A stretch of 42,095 nucleotides of DNA, taken from the IMG/VR virus record IMGVR_UViG_3300023118_000241, positions 1 through 42,095 of that record; one strand, given 5' to 3'. How positions within the stretch are numbered: the stretch's first letter is position 1; every line of letters starts with the position of its first letter. Made by a program: the position numbers and the translations under genes. The stretch is from a virus. Below, piece after piece: positions 2,643-20,519 of this stretch. The notes under the pieces were generated by a model. The model made no database searches, was not told where the DNA came from, and saw nothing but the letters and a program-made list of their open reading frames with translations.

Positions 2643-3972
2643 ATCTTGTTTCAAGAAGGGGGCCAAAGTCCAGCACGGCATCCATGGCCCGGGTAGCATC
2701 GCGTCGGTTGATGGCGATCGCGCGCTTGTTGTTTTCGAGAACGGGCATTCGCTGTCGACGCTGACCGCTCATCTGCGGTACCGGTCGGTTTCGTCACCCA
2801 CGCCAGCGAACGACAACGCCACACCCGAGCCGGCGCACGATCGGGCATCACCAGCGCCTGCCGACGCCTCAAGACGCATGGCGACGCCTCCCGCCCAGCC
2901 TAAGCGTGACATTGAAGTGATCACGCCATCGGACTGGGACGGTAAGCCCGTACCGGAGAGGGAATGGTACATCGACGATCTGATCCCGATGCGGCAGGTC
3001 ACCATTCTCTATGGAGATGGCGGCACCGGTAAATCACTATTAGCCTTGCAGGTCTCCGCGGCCGGCGCGATGGGTGTCACCACACTGGAGATGGCGCCGC
3101 GCCCCGGCAGAGCGTTCTATCTTGGTGCGGAGGATGAGGCGGAAGAATTTCACCGGCGGTTGATAGACATCACCAACGGCCACGGGCGAACGCTTGCGAA
3201 CCTGTCCGACTTCCGGCTGGTGCCACTTGCTGGTTTGGACGCTTTGCTTTCCGTGCCTGACCGCAACGGGACGATGACGCCAACACCGCTCTGGAAGGCA
3301 ACGGCCGACTACGCTCGGGAGTTTAGGCCGCAGATCATGGTCATGGACACGGTCGCCGACCTGTTCGGTGGTGATGAGATCAAGCGAGGGCAGGCCAGGC
3401 AGTTCGTCGGCATGCTGAAGGGGCTGGCGATCGAGATTGATTGCGCTGTCATCTTGCTCGCCCATCCGTCGGTTCAGGGCATGCAAAGCGGGACAGGCTC
3501 TTCAGGTTCGACAGGATGGAGCAACAGCGCGCGATCGCGGCTCTACCTCACGCGGCCAGACAGCAAGGATGCGGATAGTGATCTGCGCATCCTGAAAACG
3601 ATGAAGTCGAACTACGGCACGATCGGCGCTGAGCTCAAAATGAAGTGGCACAGAGGCGCGTTCGTTCTCGACGACGGCAAGCCAGCGCCGGGTTCCGCAA
3701 TGATTGCGGCAAAAGCGGAACGTGTTTTCCGAGATGTGCTGTCAGCATTGAACCGAAGCGGAGAGCGCGTCGCCAAGACAAAGGGTGTCAACTACGCCCC
3801 CAAGATAATGGCGGAAAGGCCAGATGCGGAAGGCGTAACAGCAAAGCAGTTGGAAGCCGCGATGCAACGTCTACTGATCAATGGCGAGGTCAAGATCGTC
3901 ATGGAGGGTCCCCCTACAAAACTTCGGCAGCGGCTCATTCTGACATCGGAAGACTTTGGGCCAAAAGACTGA
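2620..3972 (+). CDS. RecA/RepA-type ATPase (AAA_25), replicative helicase-like
   Basis: A 450-residue protein. The first 50 residues resemble a KOW/DUF3553-like beta domain (GAKVQHGIHGPGSI, then VVFENGHS), followed by a Pro/Ala-rich linker. Residues about 105-340 form a RecA-like ATPase of the AAA_25/RepA class: Walker A YGDGGTGKS with Lys138 and Walker B IMVMDT with Asp243. The C-terminal 80 residues look like a winged helix (TAKQLEAAMQRLLINGEV). Such proteins act as hexameric helicases or loaders in phage and plasmid replication. ATG at 2620, preceded by GGAGAG, is preferred over an upstream GTG at 2590. A C-rich repeat region follows directly and may be its target. Confidence 0.82.
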   Translation: MNASAQPKSCFKKGAKVQHGIHGPGSIASVDGDRALVVFENGHSLSTLTAHLRYRSVSSPTPANDNATPEPAHDRASPAPADASRRMATPPAQPKRDIEVITPSDWDGKPVPEREWYIDDLIPMRQVTILYGDGGTGKSLLALQVSAAGAMGVTTLEMAPRPGRAFYLGAEDEAEEFHRRLIDITNGHGRTLANLSDFRLVPLAGLDALLSVPDRNGTMTPTPLWKATADYAREFRPQIMVMDTVADLFGGDEIKRGQARQFVGMLKGLAIEIDCAVILLAHPSVQGMQSGTGSSGSTGWSNSARSRLYLTRPDSKDADSDLRILKTMKSNYGTIGAELKMKWHRGAFVLDDGKPAPGSAMIAAKAERVFRDVLSALNRSGERVAKTKGVNYAPKIMAERPDAEGVTAKQLEAAMQRLLINGEVKIVMEGPPTKLRQRLILTSEDFGPKD

Positions 3973-7489: not shown

Positions 7490-7876
7490 ATGGCAAGGCC
7501 GCGTACGCCGAAGGCCAAGGCGGAGATCACTGGCCATGCGGACAAGCAGAAAACAAAATTTGAAGGCCGCAACGAACCGACGGTAGCTGACAACGTCGGC
7601 GAGCCGTTCGACTGGCTGAATGAGCACGCCCAGAAGGCGTGGAAGGAAATTTCATCTGAGGTGCCTTGGCTTAACTCTAGCCACCGTGGCCACCTGGCGA
7701 TCGCTGCGAACATTCGCGGCAGGATGATGAAGGGTGACGATGTTGGCGTACAGGCCATGAACCTTCTCCGCCAGTGCTACGGGCAAATGGGCGCGACGCC
7801 GGCTGATGCCAGCAAGGCTGGAGCTAAACCGGATGGCGAGAGCAAAGACCCAGCCGACGAGTTCTTCAACGACTAA
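7490..7876 (+). CDS. terS: Terminase small subunit
   Basis: A 128-residue P27-family-like small terminase subunit, recognised from position (between HNH and TerL), length and the helical core (WLNEHAQKAWKEISSEVPWL, then HRGHLAIAANIRGR). It would recognise the phage genome end and hand DNA to the large subunit. The N-terminus is basic (MARPRTPKAKAE), as in DNA-binding family members, and the C-terminus is an acidic tail. GAGGG lies before the ATG. It overlaps TerL by 44 bases. Confidence 0.82.
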   Translation: MARPRTPKAKAEITGHADKQKTKFEGRNEPTVADNVGEPFDWLNEHAQKAWKEISSEVPWLNSSHRGHLAIAANIRGRMMKGDDVGVQAMNLLRQCYGQMGATPADASKAGAKPDGESKDPADEFFND

Positions 7877-9812
7877 GGGTTCGGTGCCGAAGAAGCGCGT
7901 CCCGCGGGCAAAGAAGCCGGTTAGCTTGCTGCCGAAGCATTTCGATCCGAAATACCCCAGCGGCCCGGTCGATGAGTACGCAGAGAAGGTTCTTAAGGGC
8001 GAGATTGTAGCCGGACCGCACGTGCGGAACGCGTGCCGTCGGCATCGCGATGATCGGATGAATGGCCCGAAGCGTGGCATCCACTGGGATCCAGAGGCGG
8101 CGAGCCGCGTCCTAAGGTTCTTCCCGGCTGTTCTTCGCTTGAACGGCGGCCAGTTCGAAGGGCGACCGTTTCACCCGCACCTCTCGCAGCAGTTCAAGAT
8201 CGGATCCATCTTCGGTTGGAAGCGCGTTGAATCAGACGGCGCAGTCCTGCGACGCTTTCGGCGCGCGTACATCGAAGAGGGCAAAGGCAACGGCAAGTCG
8301 CCGCTGGCCGCTGGCATTGGGCACTACTGCCTGACGTCGGATGGAGAGGCAGCAGCCGAAATCTACGCTGCTGCGGCCAACAAGGACCAGGCTTTCGTTC
8401 TTTTTCGTGACGCTGTCGCGATGTACGAGCAGTCGCCGGCGCTCAAGTCCAAGCTGACGCCATCGGGCGGCAATCCGGTCTGGAACCTTTCATACCTCAA
8501 GAAGCGGTCTTTCTTTCGGCCGATCTCGCGCGAAGGCGCCCACTCCGGCCCGCGCCCATACATCGCTTTGTGCGATGAGATCCACGAACATCCTGATGGC
8601 AAGGTCATCGAGATGCTCGAGCGCGGCTTCAAGTTCCGTCGTCAGCCCCTGCTGTTCATGATCACGAACTCTGGCAGCGATAGGAATTCGATCTGCTGGG
8701 ACGAGCACCAACATGCCGTAAAAGTAGCTGCCGGCACTCAGACACCGGATGACGACTTCAACTACGTGGGCGAAGTCGTTGACGATACGACGTTCTCGTA
8801 CGTCTGCGCGCTCGATAAGGACGACGACCCGTTTACTGATCCGACCTGCTGGCAAAAAGCTAACCCGCTTTTCGGGGTCACGCTAAAGCACGACTATCTT
8901 GCCGGCGTCGTCAACCAAGCGAAGGACATTCCTTCGAAGCGCAACGGTATTCTGCGCCTGCATTTCTGCGTCTGGACTGAAGCCGATACCGCATGGATCC
9001 CGCGGCCCATCCTCGAAAAGGTGATGGCTGACTTCGATCCGTACGTGGAGCACAAGGGCAAGGTCATAACTTCGGCAGGGCTCGACTTGTCGGGTGCCAA
9101 GGATCTGACCGCCGCGGCATTTACCGTGGAGACCGGAACCAAGCGCATCACGCGCGAGGATGGCACGGAGGCGGATCTTCCGACCTACGATCTTTGGATC
9201 GAGGCATGGACGCCGCGAGACACGATGGATGAGCGGTCCAAGCAGGATCATGTTCCATATCGTCTTTGGCTCGATCAGGGCTACATCAACGCGCCGGAAG
9301 GCCAGCGGATTCGGTACGATCATGTTGCTGCACTATTCGCTCGTCTCAATACCGAGCACGGCATCAACGTTCTGGCGTTCGACCGCTATGCGTTCGATAA
9401 GTTTGAGCAGGAGCTGGATGACTACGGCGTCGACATCAAGACGGTAGCGCATCCGCAAGGCGGCAAGAAGCGAGCGAAGCCGGACGAGGCCAAGGTTCAA
9501 GCGGCAAAAGATGCGGGGCAGGAGCCCCCATTGGGCCTCTGGATGCCTGGTAGCGTTGCGGCTCTGGAAACGCTGATCCTCGAAGAGCGGATTCGCTTGA
9601 GAAAGTCGCCTGTGCTGCTAGGCGCCCTAATGGGCGTTGCAATCGAAACCGATCCACTCATGGGAAACCAGTGGTTCTCCAAAAAGAAGTCGACGATCCG
9701 CATCGACCCTGCCGTTGCTGCCGCAATGGCGGTTGGTGCTGCGGTTGATGGTCAGGGACCAAGCGCTCCGGACATCGGCGACTTCATTGACAACATGGTA
9801 ATGGTGATTTGA
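7833..9812 (+). CDS. terL: Terminase large subunit
   Basis: The packaging motor and nuclease, 659 residues from ATG 7833 (GGAG upstream); an in-frame ATG at 7806 is possible. The ATPase half has Walker A GKGNGKS with Lys155 and Walker B ALCDEIHE with Asp248-Glu249. The RNase H-like nuclease half has Asp418 (GLDLSGAKD) and Asp517 (AFDRYAF) as likely metal ligands. It is typical of the HK97/P27 terminase_1 family. The stop TGA overlaps the portal start. Confidence 0.95.
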   Translation: MARAKTQPTSSSTTKGSVPKKRVPRAKKPVSLLPKHFDPKYPSGPVDEYAEKVLKGEIVAGPHVRNACRRHRDDRMNGPKRGIHWDPEAASRVLRFFPAVLRLNGGQFEGRPFHPHLSQQFKIGSIFGWKRVESDGAVLRRFRRAYIEEGKGNGKSPLAAGIGHYCLTSDGEAAAEIYAAAANKDQAFVLFRDAVAMYEQSPALKSKLTPSGGNPVWNLSYLKKRSFFRPISREGAHSGPRPYIALCDEIHEHPDGKVIEMLERGFKFRRQPLLFMITNSGSDRNSICWDEHQHAVKVAAGTQTPDDDFNYVGEVVDDTTFSYVCALDKDDDPFTDPTCWQKANPLFGVTLKHDYLAGVVNQAKDIPSKRNGILRLHFCVWTEADTAWIPRPILEKVMADFDPYVEHKGKVITSAGLDLSGAKDLTAAAFTVETGTKRITREDGTEADLPTYDLWIEAWTPRDTMDERSKQDHVPYRLWLDQGYINAPEGQRIRYDHVAALFARLNTEHGINVLAFDRYAFDKFEQELDDYGVDIKTVAHPQGGKKRAKPDEAKVQAAKDAGQEPPLGLWMPGSVAALETLILEERIRLRKSPVLLGALMGVAIETDPLMGNQWFSKKKSTIRIDPAVAAAMAVGAAVDGQGPSAPDIGDFIDNMVMVI

Positions 9813-16258: not shown

Positions 16259-16690
16259 ATGGCAGATGGCGAACAGCTCGGCAGAACCCTACTCATCAAA
16301 GTAGGCGACGGCGCTGATCCAGAAGTATTCAGCAACCTGTGCGGCCTGAAGGATCGAAGCTTCGACCTTTCCGCTAATTCGGTTGATACGACCAAGCCGA
16401 GCTGCACCAATCCCGGTGGCCCGGTGCAGAAGACGGGCCGCCCTGGCATCGTCAGCCGAACCTTCCAGGGCTCCGGCACGTTCGTGTCCAGCGCCGCCAT
16501 GAAGGCGTTCATGACCAACGTCATCAACGCGACCGTCTTCAACGCGCAGGTCATCGTGCCCGGCCTCGGAACGTTCGCCGGCTCGTACTTTGTCACCAGT
16601 TTCCAGGCGAGCGGCGACATGGAAAATGACCTGCAGTTCAGCGCGACCTTCGAAGCTGCTGCTGCACTCGTATTCACGGCGGAGGCATAA
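16259..16690 (+). CDS. Major tail tube protein (TP901-1 type)
   Basis: A 143-residue tube subunit. Family marks are LGRTLLIKVGDG at the start, SVDTTKPSC near residue 45 and GSYFVTSFQASGDMENDLQF near the end, typical of TP901-1 / GTA tail tubes. The ribosome site AAGGAG is strong, as expected for an abundant structural protein. Confidence 0.88.
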   Translation: MADGEQLGRTLLIKVGDGADPEVFSNLCGLKDRSFDLSANSVDTTKPSCTNPGGPVQKTGRPGIVSRTFQGSGTFVSSAAMKAFMTNVINATVFNAQVIVPGLGTFAGSYFVTSFQASGDMENDLQFSATFEAAAALVFTAEA

Positions 16691-16693
16691 TCC

Positions 16694-17059
16694 ATGGCTA
16701 AAGAGGAGAAGGTATTTCCGCTGGCCGTAAACGAAGCGCGCGGTGAAACGGCGCTTTGGGTCGCGGATGTCCCGCTAGTTTTGGCGGCCGAAATAGGCCG
16801 CCTGTCGGCCGTATCAACCCGCTTGCAGTGCAAGTCGCTGAACGACCTGTTCCTGCGTCTTTCCGGCGTTGAGGCGGCTGCGACGCTTGCTGCGATCGAG
16901 CTGCTGACCGTCAAGGGTAATGCGATCGAGGCGATCACCAAGATCAAGCTCAGGCACTTCCCGGCCTGCGCCGATGCGTTCTCTGCCGTCCTCTCACATC
17001 ACTTCGAGGGTGACGAGGGTGACGCGGGAAACGCGGAAGCCGTCGACGAGGCGGCTTAA
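16694..17059 (+). CDS. Tail assembly chaperone, GTA gp10-like
   Basis: A 121-residue protein with the gene-transfer-agent gp10 pattern (LAVNEARGETALWVADVPLV, then RLQCKSLNDLFLRL). It sits between tail tube and tape measure, where siphoviruses encode the gpG-type chaperone that coats the tape measure during tail assembly. Near its end is a slippery heptamer GGGAAAC (17026-17032) in the correct frame. The normal product stops at 17059; a minority of ribosomes probably shift by -1 to make a longer fusion. Confidence 0.88.
   Translation: MAKEEKVFPLAVNEARGETALWVADVPLVLAAEIGRLSAVSTRLQCKSLNDLFLRLSGVEAAATLAAIELLTVKGNAIEAITKIKLRHFPACADAFSAVLSHHFEGDEGDAGNAEAVDEAA
17026..17057 (+). promoter_or_regulatory. 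Programmed -1 frameshift signal
   Basis: G_GGA_AAC lies at 17026-17032, in phase with the chaperone reading frame (GGA and AAC are codons). It is followed after four bases by a stem AAGCCG / CGGCTT (17037-17042 and 17052-17057) with a nine-base loop that spans the zero-frame stop region. The -1 frame is open from 17023 to 17265. Confidence 0.72.
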
Positions 17060-17265
17060 AGAAGGAAGAGCCATTCCCATGGCGGGAGTGGCTGCGGATC
17101 GGGACCGGTGGCCTAAAATGGCGACCGGTCGACTTCTGGGACGCGACGCTCACGGAATTCTTTGCGGCCATCAATGGGCACAATGAATCGCAAGAGACAG
17201 AGCAGAAGCAGGAAGGCGGCCCGACGGCCACCGAGATGGCCGAGCTCATGGCGAAGTATGGATGA
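17032..17265 (+). CDS. Frameshifted C-terminal extension of the tail assembly chaperone (gpGT-like)
   Basis: A -1 frame with no start codon of its own. It reads from the slippery site through EEPFPWREWLRIGTGGLKW and RPVDFWDATLTEFFAAING to EMAELMAKYG. Protein-like composition and the W-rich helix pattern match the second tail assembly chaperone component of GTA-like phages. As a fusion it would give 113 residues of the gp10-like protein plus 77 more (190 in all), as lambda gpGT does. Initiation at an internal codon is less likely, because no good ribosome site plus start precedes the conserved part. Confidence 0.75.
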   Translation, partial: RGSRRRGGLKKEEPFPWREWLRIGTGGLKWRPVDFWDATLTEFFAAINGHNESQETEQKQEGGPTATEMAELMAKYG

Positions 17266-17276
17266 TTTTCGGAGAG

Positions 17277-17298
17277 GCCCGCCACCACGCGGGCTTTT
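17277..17298 (+). terminator. Terminator-like hairpin before the tape measure gene
   Basis: GCCCGC-CACCAC-GCGGGC, six perfect pairs, then TTTT. It lies inside the late operon, 24 bases before the tape measure start, so it may attenuate transcription between the abundant tube genes and the tail tape measure unless antitermination acts. Confidence 0.55.
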
Positions 17299-17321: not shown

Positions 17322-20300
17322 ATGGCTGACAACGACAATAATCTGGTCTTTACCGTCAGCTCGGACATGTCCGCCGCGCAGCGCGGATTGGCAAAGTTCG
17401 CGGTCGATGTCGGCGCGTCAGCTGACCAGATCGCTAGAAAGTATGCAGCTGCCGGCGCCAAGATTGACGGATCCGTCTCCGCGCTCCAGTCGCGCATCAA
17501 CGGTGTGGTCGGTATCGGGGCGAAGGTCTCGAAGGAATGGACCGGCGCGCTGGCCGATCAGGGCAAGGAACTTGAGCGCCTTCGTGCGCGTTACTCGCCG
17601 CTTTTTGCGACCATCAACAACTACAAGACGGCCGTTTCTGAGATCCAGCGCGCCCACGCTATCGGCGCGATATCCGCGAATGAGATGGCCTCCGCCATCA
17701 GCAAGGAGCGCCAGGCAGCGCTTGCCTCTACAGCGGCTATCAAGGGCAGGAATGCGGCGCTTGCCGTCGCGCCGACCCAGCGTAACGCTGGAGGTGCGGG
17801 TTCTTTCCAGACCGCGAACATCACGGCTCAGTTTCAGGACATCGCCGTAACGTCTGCGATGGGTATGAGCCCGCTGCAGATCGCGTTGCAGCAGGGCACA
17901 CAGCTTTCCTCAGTCCTATCCACGCTCGGAAATGGAAAGGGCGTTGTCACTGGACTGGCCGCAGCGTTCGGCTCGCTCCTTAGTCCTGTCTCACTTGTCA
18001 CCATAGCACTTGTGGCTGGTGGCGCCGCCGCCATCCAATATTTTTCATCGGTCGCCTCTGGTGGTGCGGAATCGGAAGAAGCCCTCAAAAAAGAGGCAGA
18101 GCTAATTCAGACGGTCGCCTCGAAGTGGGGTGACGTTCTTCCGGAACTTAAGAAGTACGCCGACGAGCGACAGAAACTGCTCGATACGAAAGAGCAGAAA
18201 GACGCAGCAGCTGCCGCTGCCAATCAGCAGTGGTCCGATCTTCGAAAGACTGTGGGCGATGTCAAAGTTGCCTTTGTTGATGTCCGATCGCAGATCGAGG
18301 CTGCCGGCGCCGAATCTGATCAGATCAACGCGCTTCAGAAGTCGTTCAACGAGCTTACGAAGGGGATTGCCGACGGCACAGCAAAGGCCGAACAGGCTCA
18401 GACTGTGCAGAAGTCGCTTGCGGACCTAGCCACGCAAACTGGCGTCCCTGCGATTGCTGAATTTGCAAAACAGTTCGACGTGTTGGCCGCATCCATCGGA
18501 ACCGCCTCCGAAAGGGCGGTGAAGCTGAAGTCGGACGTCGATTTCAGCGAGAACTTTGCCAAAAGCCGACTTCCAACGCTCGGAACGCTTAGCCCAGTAT
18601 TCTCCGATAACGGAAAGATCATAACCGATCCGAATGAGATCGATCGGTACATGAAGCAGCAGGAAGACAACCGTAACCCGACGATCAACAATGATCGCGG
18701 CGTGCCGATTGCCGTTCCGACGCCGACCGCCAAGCCAATCCAGCTCGGCGAAGAGCCTGAAAAGGAGATTGCCAAGGCAGAAACCGCGGCAACAAAGGCG
18801 GCCAACGCCTACCGTGATCTCGTCAAGTCTGCCGATGACCGAATCTCCCAGGTGCAGCAGGAAATCCAGCTGCTCGGAAGTTTCGGGGTTGAAGCCGACG
18901 CGGCCCGCTTTGCTCTCGATTTGCTTCAGCAGTCGGAAGACAAGGGCCGCTCGCTGTCTGAAACGCAGCGCGCCGAGATCCAGAAGAAGGTCGAACTCTA
19001 CAAGCAGTATTCGGAGACGCTGGCGAAGGCCAAGCTATCGCAGGATCTGCTATTTCAGCAGCGGTTCAACTCGCTGTCGAAGGAAGATCAGCAGATCACG
19101 ACGACGCTCCGCCAGTACGGTCTTTCCGAAGACTTGGGGAGCAAAGAAGCCGGATCGATCAGGCAGTCGCTGCGCACCGACGAGTTGCGAGATGACCTGA
19201 AGTCGTTTGCAACGGATTTCCGCACATCGCTGCTTAACAACGGCGGCGACATCGGCAAGGCTTTCGCTGATTCGATCGAGAATGCGCTGATGAACCAGGT
19301 CGCGAAGATCTGGGACAAACTATTCGATCAGATCATCAACGCGTTTCTCGGTAGCGGTTCGGGGCAGGCTGCGGCCAGCAATGGCGGTGGGCTCGGCGGC
19401 CTTATTGGTAGCGTGTTTAGCGGTGGCAGCACGAAGACGACGACGTCTGGCGCGGTGTCATCTGGTGCGAGTGGAGCTGTCGATAAGGCATTCAGCCTGC
19501 TTGGTCAGAACGAGAGCGCGAATACCGGTTCGATCAACTCTTTCCTCAAGCAGGGCGGCGTTGATCTCAATGCGGCCCAGACCGCTTGGTGCGCGGCGTT
19601 CGTCAATTCGTCGCTAGAGCAGGTCGGCGTCAGCGGAAGCGGATCAAGCGTTGCGAACTCGTTCCTCAATTGGGGCACGAAGATCGACCCGAGCCAAATC
19701 CTTAAGGGCGACGTGCTCGTGCAGAACCGAGGCCTTGGTGCCAGCCAATCCGGCGGCCATGTCGGCTTCGCAACAGGTGCGACGCGATACTCTGGCGGAC
19801 AACAGCAACTGGAGATGCTTTCCGGCAACCTCAATAATGGGGTCGGGAAGAGTTGGGTTGATGCGATGGACGTCCAGGCACGACGCGCAACTGCTGCGGC
19901 TTCGTCCCTTGGAGAGGTCGCTGGCTCCGCCACAAACGCCACACAAGGCCTTGGCCAGTTCGGTTCTGGCCTTGGCCAGTTGGGCAGTAGTTTAAGTTCT
20001 GCCGGTAGCGGTGGAGGCTGGGGTCAGCTCGCAGGTGCCGCCAGCGGGTTCAACTGGTCGTCGCTGTTTAGCCCATCGTGGAAGCCGAACACTACGTTCG
20101 GTGCCTTCCTCGGTCTCGCCGACGGCGGTCACGTCGCAGGCGAAGGCGGTCCGACCAGCGATAGCATCCCCGCGATGTTGTCGAATGGCGAGTTCGTCAT
20201 CAACGCAGCGTCGACGCGCAAGCATCGCAGGTTGCTCGAGGCGATCAACTCTGGCTCGGTAGCACATCTTGCCAAGGGCGGGATCGTGGCACCCTCGCTG

Positions 20301-20519
20301 GCGCCATCGGGCGGCATGGGTCGCGGCGATGTTGAGATCAAGATCATCAACAACAACGGGTCGCAGGTCAAACAGACCAAGCGAAAGACTGCTTCCGGGC
20401 AGTCCATCGAGATGGTGATCGACGATGTGGTCGCGGACAAAATGTCTATGCCCGGCTCGCGTTCGCGCGGCGCCGTCCAATCGCAGTTTGGGCTCAAGAG
20501 TGGATTGGCAAAGCGATGA
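17322..20519 (+). CDS. Tail tape measure protein with embedded Cys/His peptidase domain
   Basis: A 1065-residue protein that sets tail length and is threaded through the tube. Residues 1-170 are helical, then LQIALQQGTQLSSVLSTLG and a membrane-like stretch (about 215-245). A long coiled-coil section follows (500-650). Residues about 725-840 form a CHAP/TIGR02594-like peptidoglycan hydrolase: Cys757 in AWCAAFVNSSLEQVG and His813 in GGHVGFATG, with a GDVLV strand between them. The C-terminus has the tape-measure end motif SIPAMLSNGEFVINAASTRK. The peptidase probably opens the cell wall during DNA entry. Confidence 0.9.
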   Translation: MADNDNNLVFTVSSDMSAAQRGLAKFAVDVGASADQIARKYAAAGAKIDGSVSALQSRINGVVGIGAKVSKEWTGALADQGKELERLRARYSPLFATINNYKTAVSEIQRAHAIGAISANEMASAISKERQAALASTAAIKGRNAALAVAPTQRNAGGAGSFQTANITAQFQDIAVTSAMGMSPLQIALQQGTQLSSVLSTLGNGKGVVTGLAAAFGSLLSPVSLVTIALVAGGAAAIQYFSSVASGGAESEEALKKEAELIQTVASKWGDVLPELKKYADERQKLLDTKEQKDAAAAAANQQWSDLRKTVGDVKVAFVDVRSQIEAAGAESDQINALQKSFNELTKGIADGTAKAEQAQTVQKSLADLATQTGVPAIAEFAKQFDVLAASIGTASERAVKLKSDVDFSENFAKSRLPTLGTLSPVFSDNGKIITDPNEIDRYMKQQEDNRNPTINNDRGVPIAVPTPTAKPIQLGEEPEKEIAKAETAATKAANAYRDLVKSADDRISQVQQEIQLLGSFGVEADAARFALDLLQQSEDKGRSLSETQRAEIQKKVELYKQYSETLAKAKLSQDLLFQQRFNSLSKEDQQITTTLRQYGLSEDLGSKEAGSIRQSLRTDELRDDLKSFATDFRTSLLNNGGDIGKAFADSIENALMNQVAKIWDKLFDQIINAFLGSGSGQAAASNGGGLGGLIGSVFSGGSTKTTTSGAVSSGASGAVDKAFSLLGQNESANTGSINSFLKQGGVDLNAAQTAWCAAFVNSSLEQVGVSGSGSSVANSFLNWGTKIDPSQILKGDVLVQNRGLGASQSGGHVGFATGATRYSGGQQQLEMLSGNLNNGVGKSWVDAMDVQARRATAAASSLGEVAGSATNATQGLGQFGSGLGQLGSSLSSAGSGGGWGQLAGAASGFNWSSLFSPSWKPNTTFGAFLGLADGGHVAGEGGPTSDSIPAMLSNGEFVINAASTRKHRRLLEAINSGSVAHLAKGGIVAPSLAPSGGMGRGDVEIKIINNNGSQVKQTKRKTASGQSIEMVIDDVVADKMSMPGSRSRGAVQSQFGLKSGLAKR

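Follow-up and report, generated by a model that had tools for sequence, protein, structure and literature searches.

Evidence for a −1 programmed frameshift in the tail assembly chaperone gene of a rhizobial phage and for related sites in alphaproteobacterial gene transfer agents

Introduction

Frameshifting in the tail chaperone genes of phages is textbook knowledge. The −1 frameshift of lambda G/G-T and its relatives in long-tailed phages were reportedly described by Xu, Hendrix and Duda in 2004. In lambda, the short product coats the tape measure protein, whereas tail tube subunits are recruited by the fusion (PMC5009743). Published tail chaperone sites include GGGAAAC in Caulobacter phage Colossus and AAAAAAC in phiCbK (PMC3556154), and GGGAAAC in Burkholderia phage KL1 (PMC3483164) and in HCTV-1 (PMC5009743). 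In one study, two frameshift genes of an HK97-like tail chaperone cluster gave 6% and 7% frameshifting (PMC3711429). In gene transfer agents (GTAs), g10 and g10.1, with domains PF11836 and PF09550, are tail chaperones 1 and 2 (PMC11409702); a paper on frameshifting in a Wolbachia GTA describes a +1 shift affecting a hydrolase, at a different locus (PMC10299305).

Here we analyze a chaperone locus in a rhizobial phage that resembles lambda G/G-T in having a two-frame chaperone gene flanked by those for the tail tube and the tape measure, a G_GGA_AA-type heptamer near the 3′ end, and a −1 extension with no start of its own. Unlike that of lambda, the heptamer ends in C rather than G, and the protein families differ (a PF09550 extension and a phrog_13724 chaperone). 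The analogy to lambda gpGT drawn in a first-pass annotation of this DNA is apt as to where the genes lie, the class of heptamer and the frame. Colossus, phiCbK, KL1 and HCTV-1 share the heptamers of our family, at loci of the same type. Because GGGAAAC and AAAAAAC at such loci have already been published, the rhizobial site adds to a known class, and on its sequence features the locus is a member of the lambda G/GT frameshift class. Our literature search found no paper naming this chaperone family, to which Rhizobium phage RHph_Y3_1 and rhizobial prophages also belong.

Results

Layout of the locus

The window, by which we mean the whole 42,095-nt stretch analyzed (IMGVR_UViG_3300023118_000241), comes from a rhizobial phage; its IMG/VR record is itself viral. 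The chaperone locus occupies 16,694–17,265, and a domain scan covering the tail region placed the chaperone pair after the tail tube gene and before the tape measure gene, the position of lambda G/GT:

16259–16690, + strand: tail tube protein, the upstream neighbor (PF06199 match)
16694–17059, + strand: zero-frame tail assembly chaperone, gpG-like, 121 aa (phrog_13724, E 1.4e-24, and gene position)
17020–17022, + strand: TGA closing the −1 frame just 5′ of the heptamer (from the frame reading)
17026–17032, + strand: slippery heptamer GGGAAAC, read G_GGA_AAC, in slip phase relative to ATG 16694
17032–17265, + strand: −1 frame extension, 77 codons plus stop, the gpT-like part of the fusion (open 17032–17262, stop 17263–17265)
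17057–17059, + strand: TAA, the zero-frame stop (reading frame from ATG 16694)
17074–17193, + strand: PF09550 (Phage_TAC_6) domain in the extension (E 9.8e-10 in the record, 1.6e-8 in the window scan)
17322–20519, + strand: tape measure protein, 1065 aa, the downstream neighbor (PF06791 match)

The first-pass annotation had placed GGGAAAC in the correct phase, with a stem-loop four bases downstream, 25 bases before the zero-frame stop, and a −1 frame open for 77 more codons that lacks a start and reads as a plausible protein. Phase, stem-loop (17037–17044 with 17050–17057) and open frame were all recovered at these positions, and the stop does lie closely 3′ of the heptamer, although at 24 rather than 25 bases. 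Because the −1 frame is closed by the TGA at 17020–17022, it shares no more than 37 bases with the zero frame. That annotation had also spoken of a GTA-type gp10. The window's zero-frame protein gave no match to PF11836 (GTA-gp10, Phage_TAC_11), which was matched weakly by the zero-frame proteins of 29 of 44 relatives (best E 3e-4), so that for the window's own protein the label is weakly supported by sequence, whereas the PF09550 partner domain is better supported. Sequence comparison of the chaperone and of the extension with solved structures gave no convincing match, and a search of plasmid sequences gave no match to the locus.

The −1 extension and its initiation

The PF09550 match scored 35.3 bits against a curated cut-off of 23.4 and covered 40 of 58 positions. 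The dN/dS ratio of the extension was 0.05 against its closest relatives, with a median of 0.20 over 58 pairs; by this measure the extension is under purifying selection. The only Rfam hit, a sub-threshold one to RsmY at 17174–17298 (19.8 bits against a threshold of 57), was taken as chance. The −1 frame of the window contains no ATG, GTG or TTG before 17236, and there is therefore no start codon upstream of the domain. Of 107 distinct loci, 86 likewise have no such codon from the point where the −1 frame opens up to the domain, and in 21 distinct loci, the window included, such codons are absent before the FW core of the domain as well.

The alternative that survives best, although we consider it very unlikely, is that the extension is a separate gene translated by reinitiation or from a non-standard start after the chaperone stop, with no frameshift. 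Most other relatives do have an ATG inside the domain, and the GenBank entry for RHph_Y3_1 (MN988490) uses one to start the second chaperone, entered as a truncated gene of its own at 3010–3198 with no frameshift listed; this codon lies 3′ of the conserved PFPW motif, however, and a start there would remove that motif. The same domain has a true start codon in ctOK67 and in rhizobial GTA copies. The first-pass annotation had named independent initiation of the second ORF as a refutation, and no canonical start was found before the domain core in the window or 20 other distinct relatives. An in-phase heptamer fixed among the relatives would also be left unexplained by a separate gene. One candidate start in the window, ATG 17080, is preceded by a good Shine-Dalgarno sequence but was rejected because its frame is the third one, which does not encode the domain; the frame that does has no canonical start before the domain.

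Conservation of the slip site

Bare GGGAAAC is not rare in the window, where 3 copies occur compared to 4.95 expected from shuffling. In-phase X_XXY_YYZ heptamers occupy 5 of 5226 codon positions in the window's main ORFs, which gives an expectation of ~0.011 for the final 12 codons of any one gene. A second in-phase GGGAAAC, at 9662–9668, falls far from the stop of an unrelated gene at 7806–9812 (terminase-like by position) and was taken as chance. Judged from sequence, the decisive evidence for a slip site, and it is strong, lies in comparative conservation and not in the rarity of the heptamer.

We collected 221 related loci that encode the zero-frame protein, RHph_Y3_1 included, using the zero-frame protein, the extension alone and a profile as queries. 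The check on relatives that had been proposed found the extension conserved across the family and GGGAAAC kept in phase in 219 of the 221 loci (107 distinct), counts that overstate independence because the loci are related. RHph_Y3_1 itself (L061 in our set) has a 78% identical chaperone with GGGAAAC in phase. All 80 of the loci retrieved by the extension alone, a query blind to the heptamer, carry GGGAAAC, and conservation of the heptamer does not, therefore, result from selecting on the upstream protein. Among 49 representative loci, the slip-site glycine is GGA in every case (GGA makes up 7–12% of glycine codons elsewhere), the asparagine is always AAC, and the codon before GGA always ends in G, yet encodes E, A, Q, P, V or S. 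In 92 of 107 distinct loci, closure of the −1 frame lies 0–12 bases 5′ of the heptamer, which confines the shift to a very short stretch. The remaining two loci, L239 and L240 (position 1824), have AAAAAAC at the equivalent place, also of the X_XXY_YYZ form, with a change in the encoded residue; they represent a natural swap of one slip-competent heptamer for another.

These data bear on two further explanations. Transcriptional slippage at the site could give the shifted frame, and L239 and L240 do have a seven-A run there, but the GGGAAAC of the other 219 loci offers runs of three only, too short for the usual case, and slippage during transcription would not have to keep codon phase; we give this explanation almost no weight. 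A chance heptamer followed by a relic or a sequencing artefact, a notion that the in-phase copy at 9662 might encourage, has a negligible probability and is already refuted by conservation at the sequence level, with the two-frame layout repeated in more than 100 distinct loci, the extension under purifying selection and single codon choices held throughout.

Candidate stimulatory elements

Two elements flank the slip site:

17018–17023, + strand: GGTGAC, a candidate Shine-Dalgarno-like stimulator 5′ of the slip site
17037–17057, + strand: stem-loop 3′ of the slip site (17037–17044 pairs with 17050–17057; the conserved core is the inner 6 bp)

The stem of the window starts 4 bases past the heptamer, and the segment 17033–17100, which includes a second hairpin, folds with a z-score of −3.9; across 49 loci the mean z-score was −2.3. 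That second strong hairpin, at 17069–17093, lies over the codons of the domain start. Among 105 loci with a simple hairpin, the conserved stem starts 6 bases past the heptamer in 80 and is 6 bp long in 76. Across the stem, pairing was found in 94.7% of cells compared to 31–61% in slid controls. The fifth pair covaries (CG in 21, UG in 10 and UA in 8 distinct sequences), and covariation is restricted to this one pair because the others hardly vary. The predicted stem is weak or absent in a few relatives (L014, L039, L044 and L060), with no stem in the divergent L060. At the codon of the upstream element, 72 of 74 glycines are encoded by GGT, compared to 29% GGT elsewhere, and the strongest predicted anti-Shine-Dalgarno pairing falls at this codon. 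From these patterns we infer only that the GGTGA element is a possible internal stimulator of slippage.

The PF09550 pair in gene transfer agents

A profile built from the domain was applied to 162 additional alphaproteobacterial PF09550 loci, in most of which a gp10-like gene precedes the domain; the three gp10 proteins that we scanned all matched PF11836 (E 9e-30 to 5e-19). The GTA marker GTA_TIM (PF13547) was present in 39 of 40 genomes searched, nearly all of them Alphaproteobacteria, mostly a few kilobases from the PF09550 locus and on the same strand, and two of the clusters were checked by domain. GTA g10/g10.1 resemble the window in domain pair, in gene order, usually in the −1 relation and, at many loci, in having an in-phase heptamer; they differ in that other heptamers are the rule and many second genes have their own start codon.

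The PF09550 domain lies in the −1 frame at 119 of 129 loci with a recognized gp10, and 68 of these 119 lack any start codon close to the stop of gp10. When the PFPW codons are excluded, 44 of the 68 no-start loci have a slippery heptamer in phase, compared to 5 and 4 in the two remaining phases, and 12 of the 51 start-codon loci have one in phase, compared to 1 and 1; the loci are related and the start-codon split follows a rule of our own. CCCTTTC in the GTA PFPW codons was omitted from this restricted test because it is partly fixed by the protein motif. In-phase heptamers occur at a density of 14 per kb in the overlap compared to 0.4 per kb elsewhere in gp10. They are mainly GGGAAAG, AAACCCT/C and CCCTTTN, with GGGAAAC found once. 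Junctions whose second gene has no start carry GGGAAAG at GTA loci such as L309, L301, L318 and L362, AAACCCC/T at L376 and L343, and CCCTTTG at L302 and L313.

In six GTA-like loci (L160, L162, L279, L293, L290 and L298), gp10 runs beyond the PFPW motif and ends at TGATG, and the PFPW codons themselves form a slip-phase CCCTTTC; expression there could be either by slippage or by reinitiation at the ATG of TGATG. Locus L170 has three in-phase copies of GGGAAAG in the PF09550 frame, 5′ of the domain. Two host genomes of close relatives hold both forms, one in a prophage that has the frameshift layout and the other in a GTA copy that starts at its own ATG (L064 and L065).

Given the enrichment of in-phase heptamers and the linkage to GTA_TIM, frameshifting looks common in GTAs, with start-codon versions alongside. 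It is probably, on this genomic evidence, a common route to the second tail chaperone of alphaproteobacterial GTAs, in which the g10/PF09550 pair would keep one function while switching among heptamers (GGGAAAG, AAACCCY and CCCTTTN) or, in other lineages, to a separate start codon. Our literature search found no paper describing slippery heptamers at the GTA g10/PF09550 junction, and these sites are apparently undescribed.

Discussion

At the rhizobial phage locus we observe the phase of the heptamer, the relation of the frames, their conservation, the coding constraint on the extension and the missing start codon. A −1 programmed ribosomal frameshift at GGGAAAC very probably yields a second, longer tail assembly chaperone here. 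We infer the slippage itself, its efficiency and the roles of both proteins as follows. Most ribosomes would read 16694–17059 and release the 121-aa chaperone, and a minority would be stalled on G_GGA_AAC by the hairpin 3′ of it, perhaps aided by the upstream GGTGA element. Both tRNAs would then slip back onto GGG and AAA, and translation would go on in the −1 frame to 17265, giving a fusion of 190 aa with the PF09550 domain at its end. On the model of lambda gpG/gpGT, the tape measure protein may be coated by the short form, and the rarer fusion may recruit tail tube subunits.

For the rhizobial phage and prophage family, these results correct the annotation; the deposited record examined, that of RHph_Y3_1, shows the second chaperone as a truncated gene of its own. 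They also provide an extensive natural alignment of a single slip site together with its possible stimulators. The GTA pattern is the more important result compared to the single phage locus. If GTAs do rely on this frameshift, selection for a set ratio between the two chaperones would persist in the domesticated, fixed-length GTA tail, studies in which g10 and g10.1 count as two genes would have to be revised, and the need of GTAs for a set chaperone ratio could be tested by changing one heptamer.
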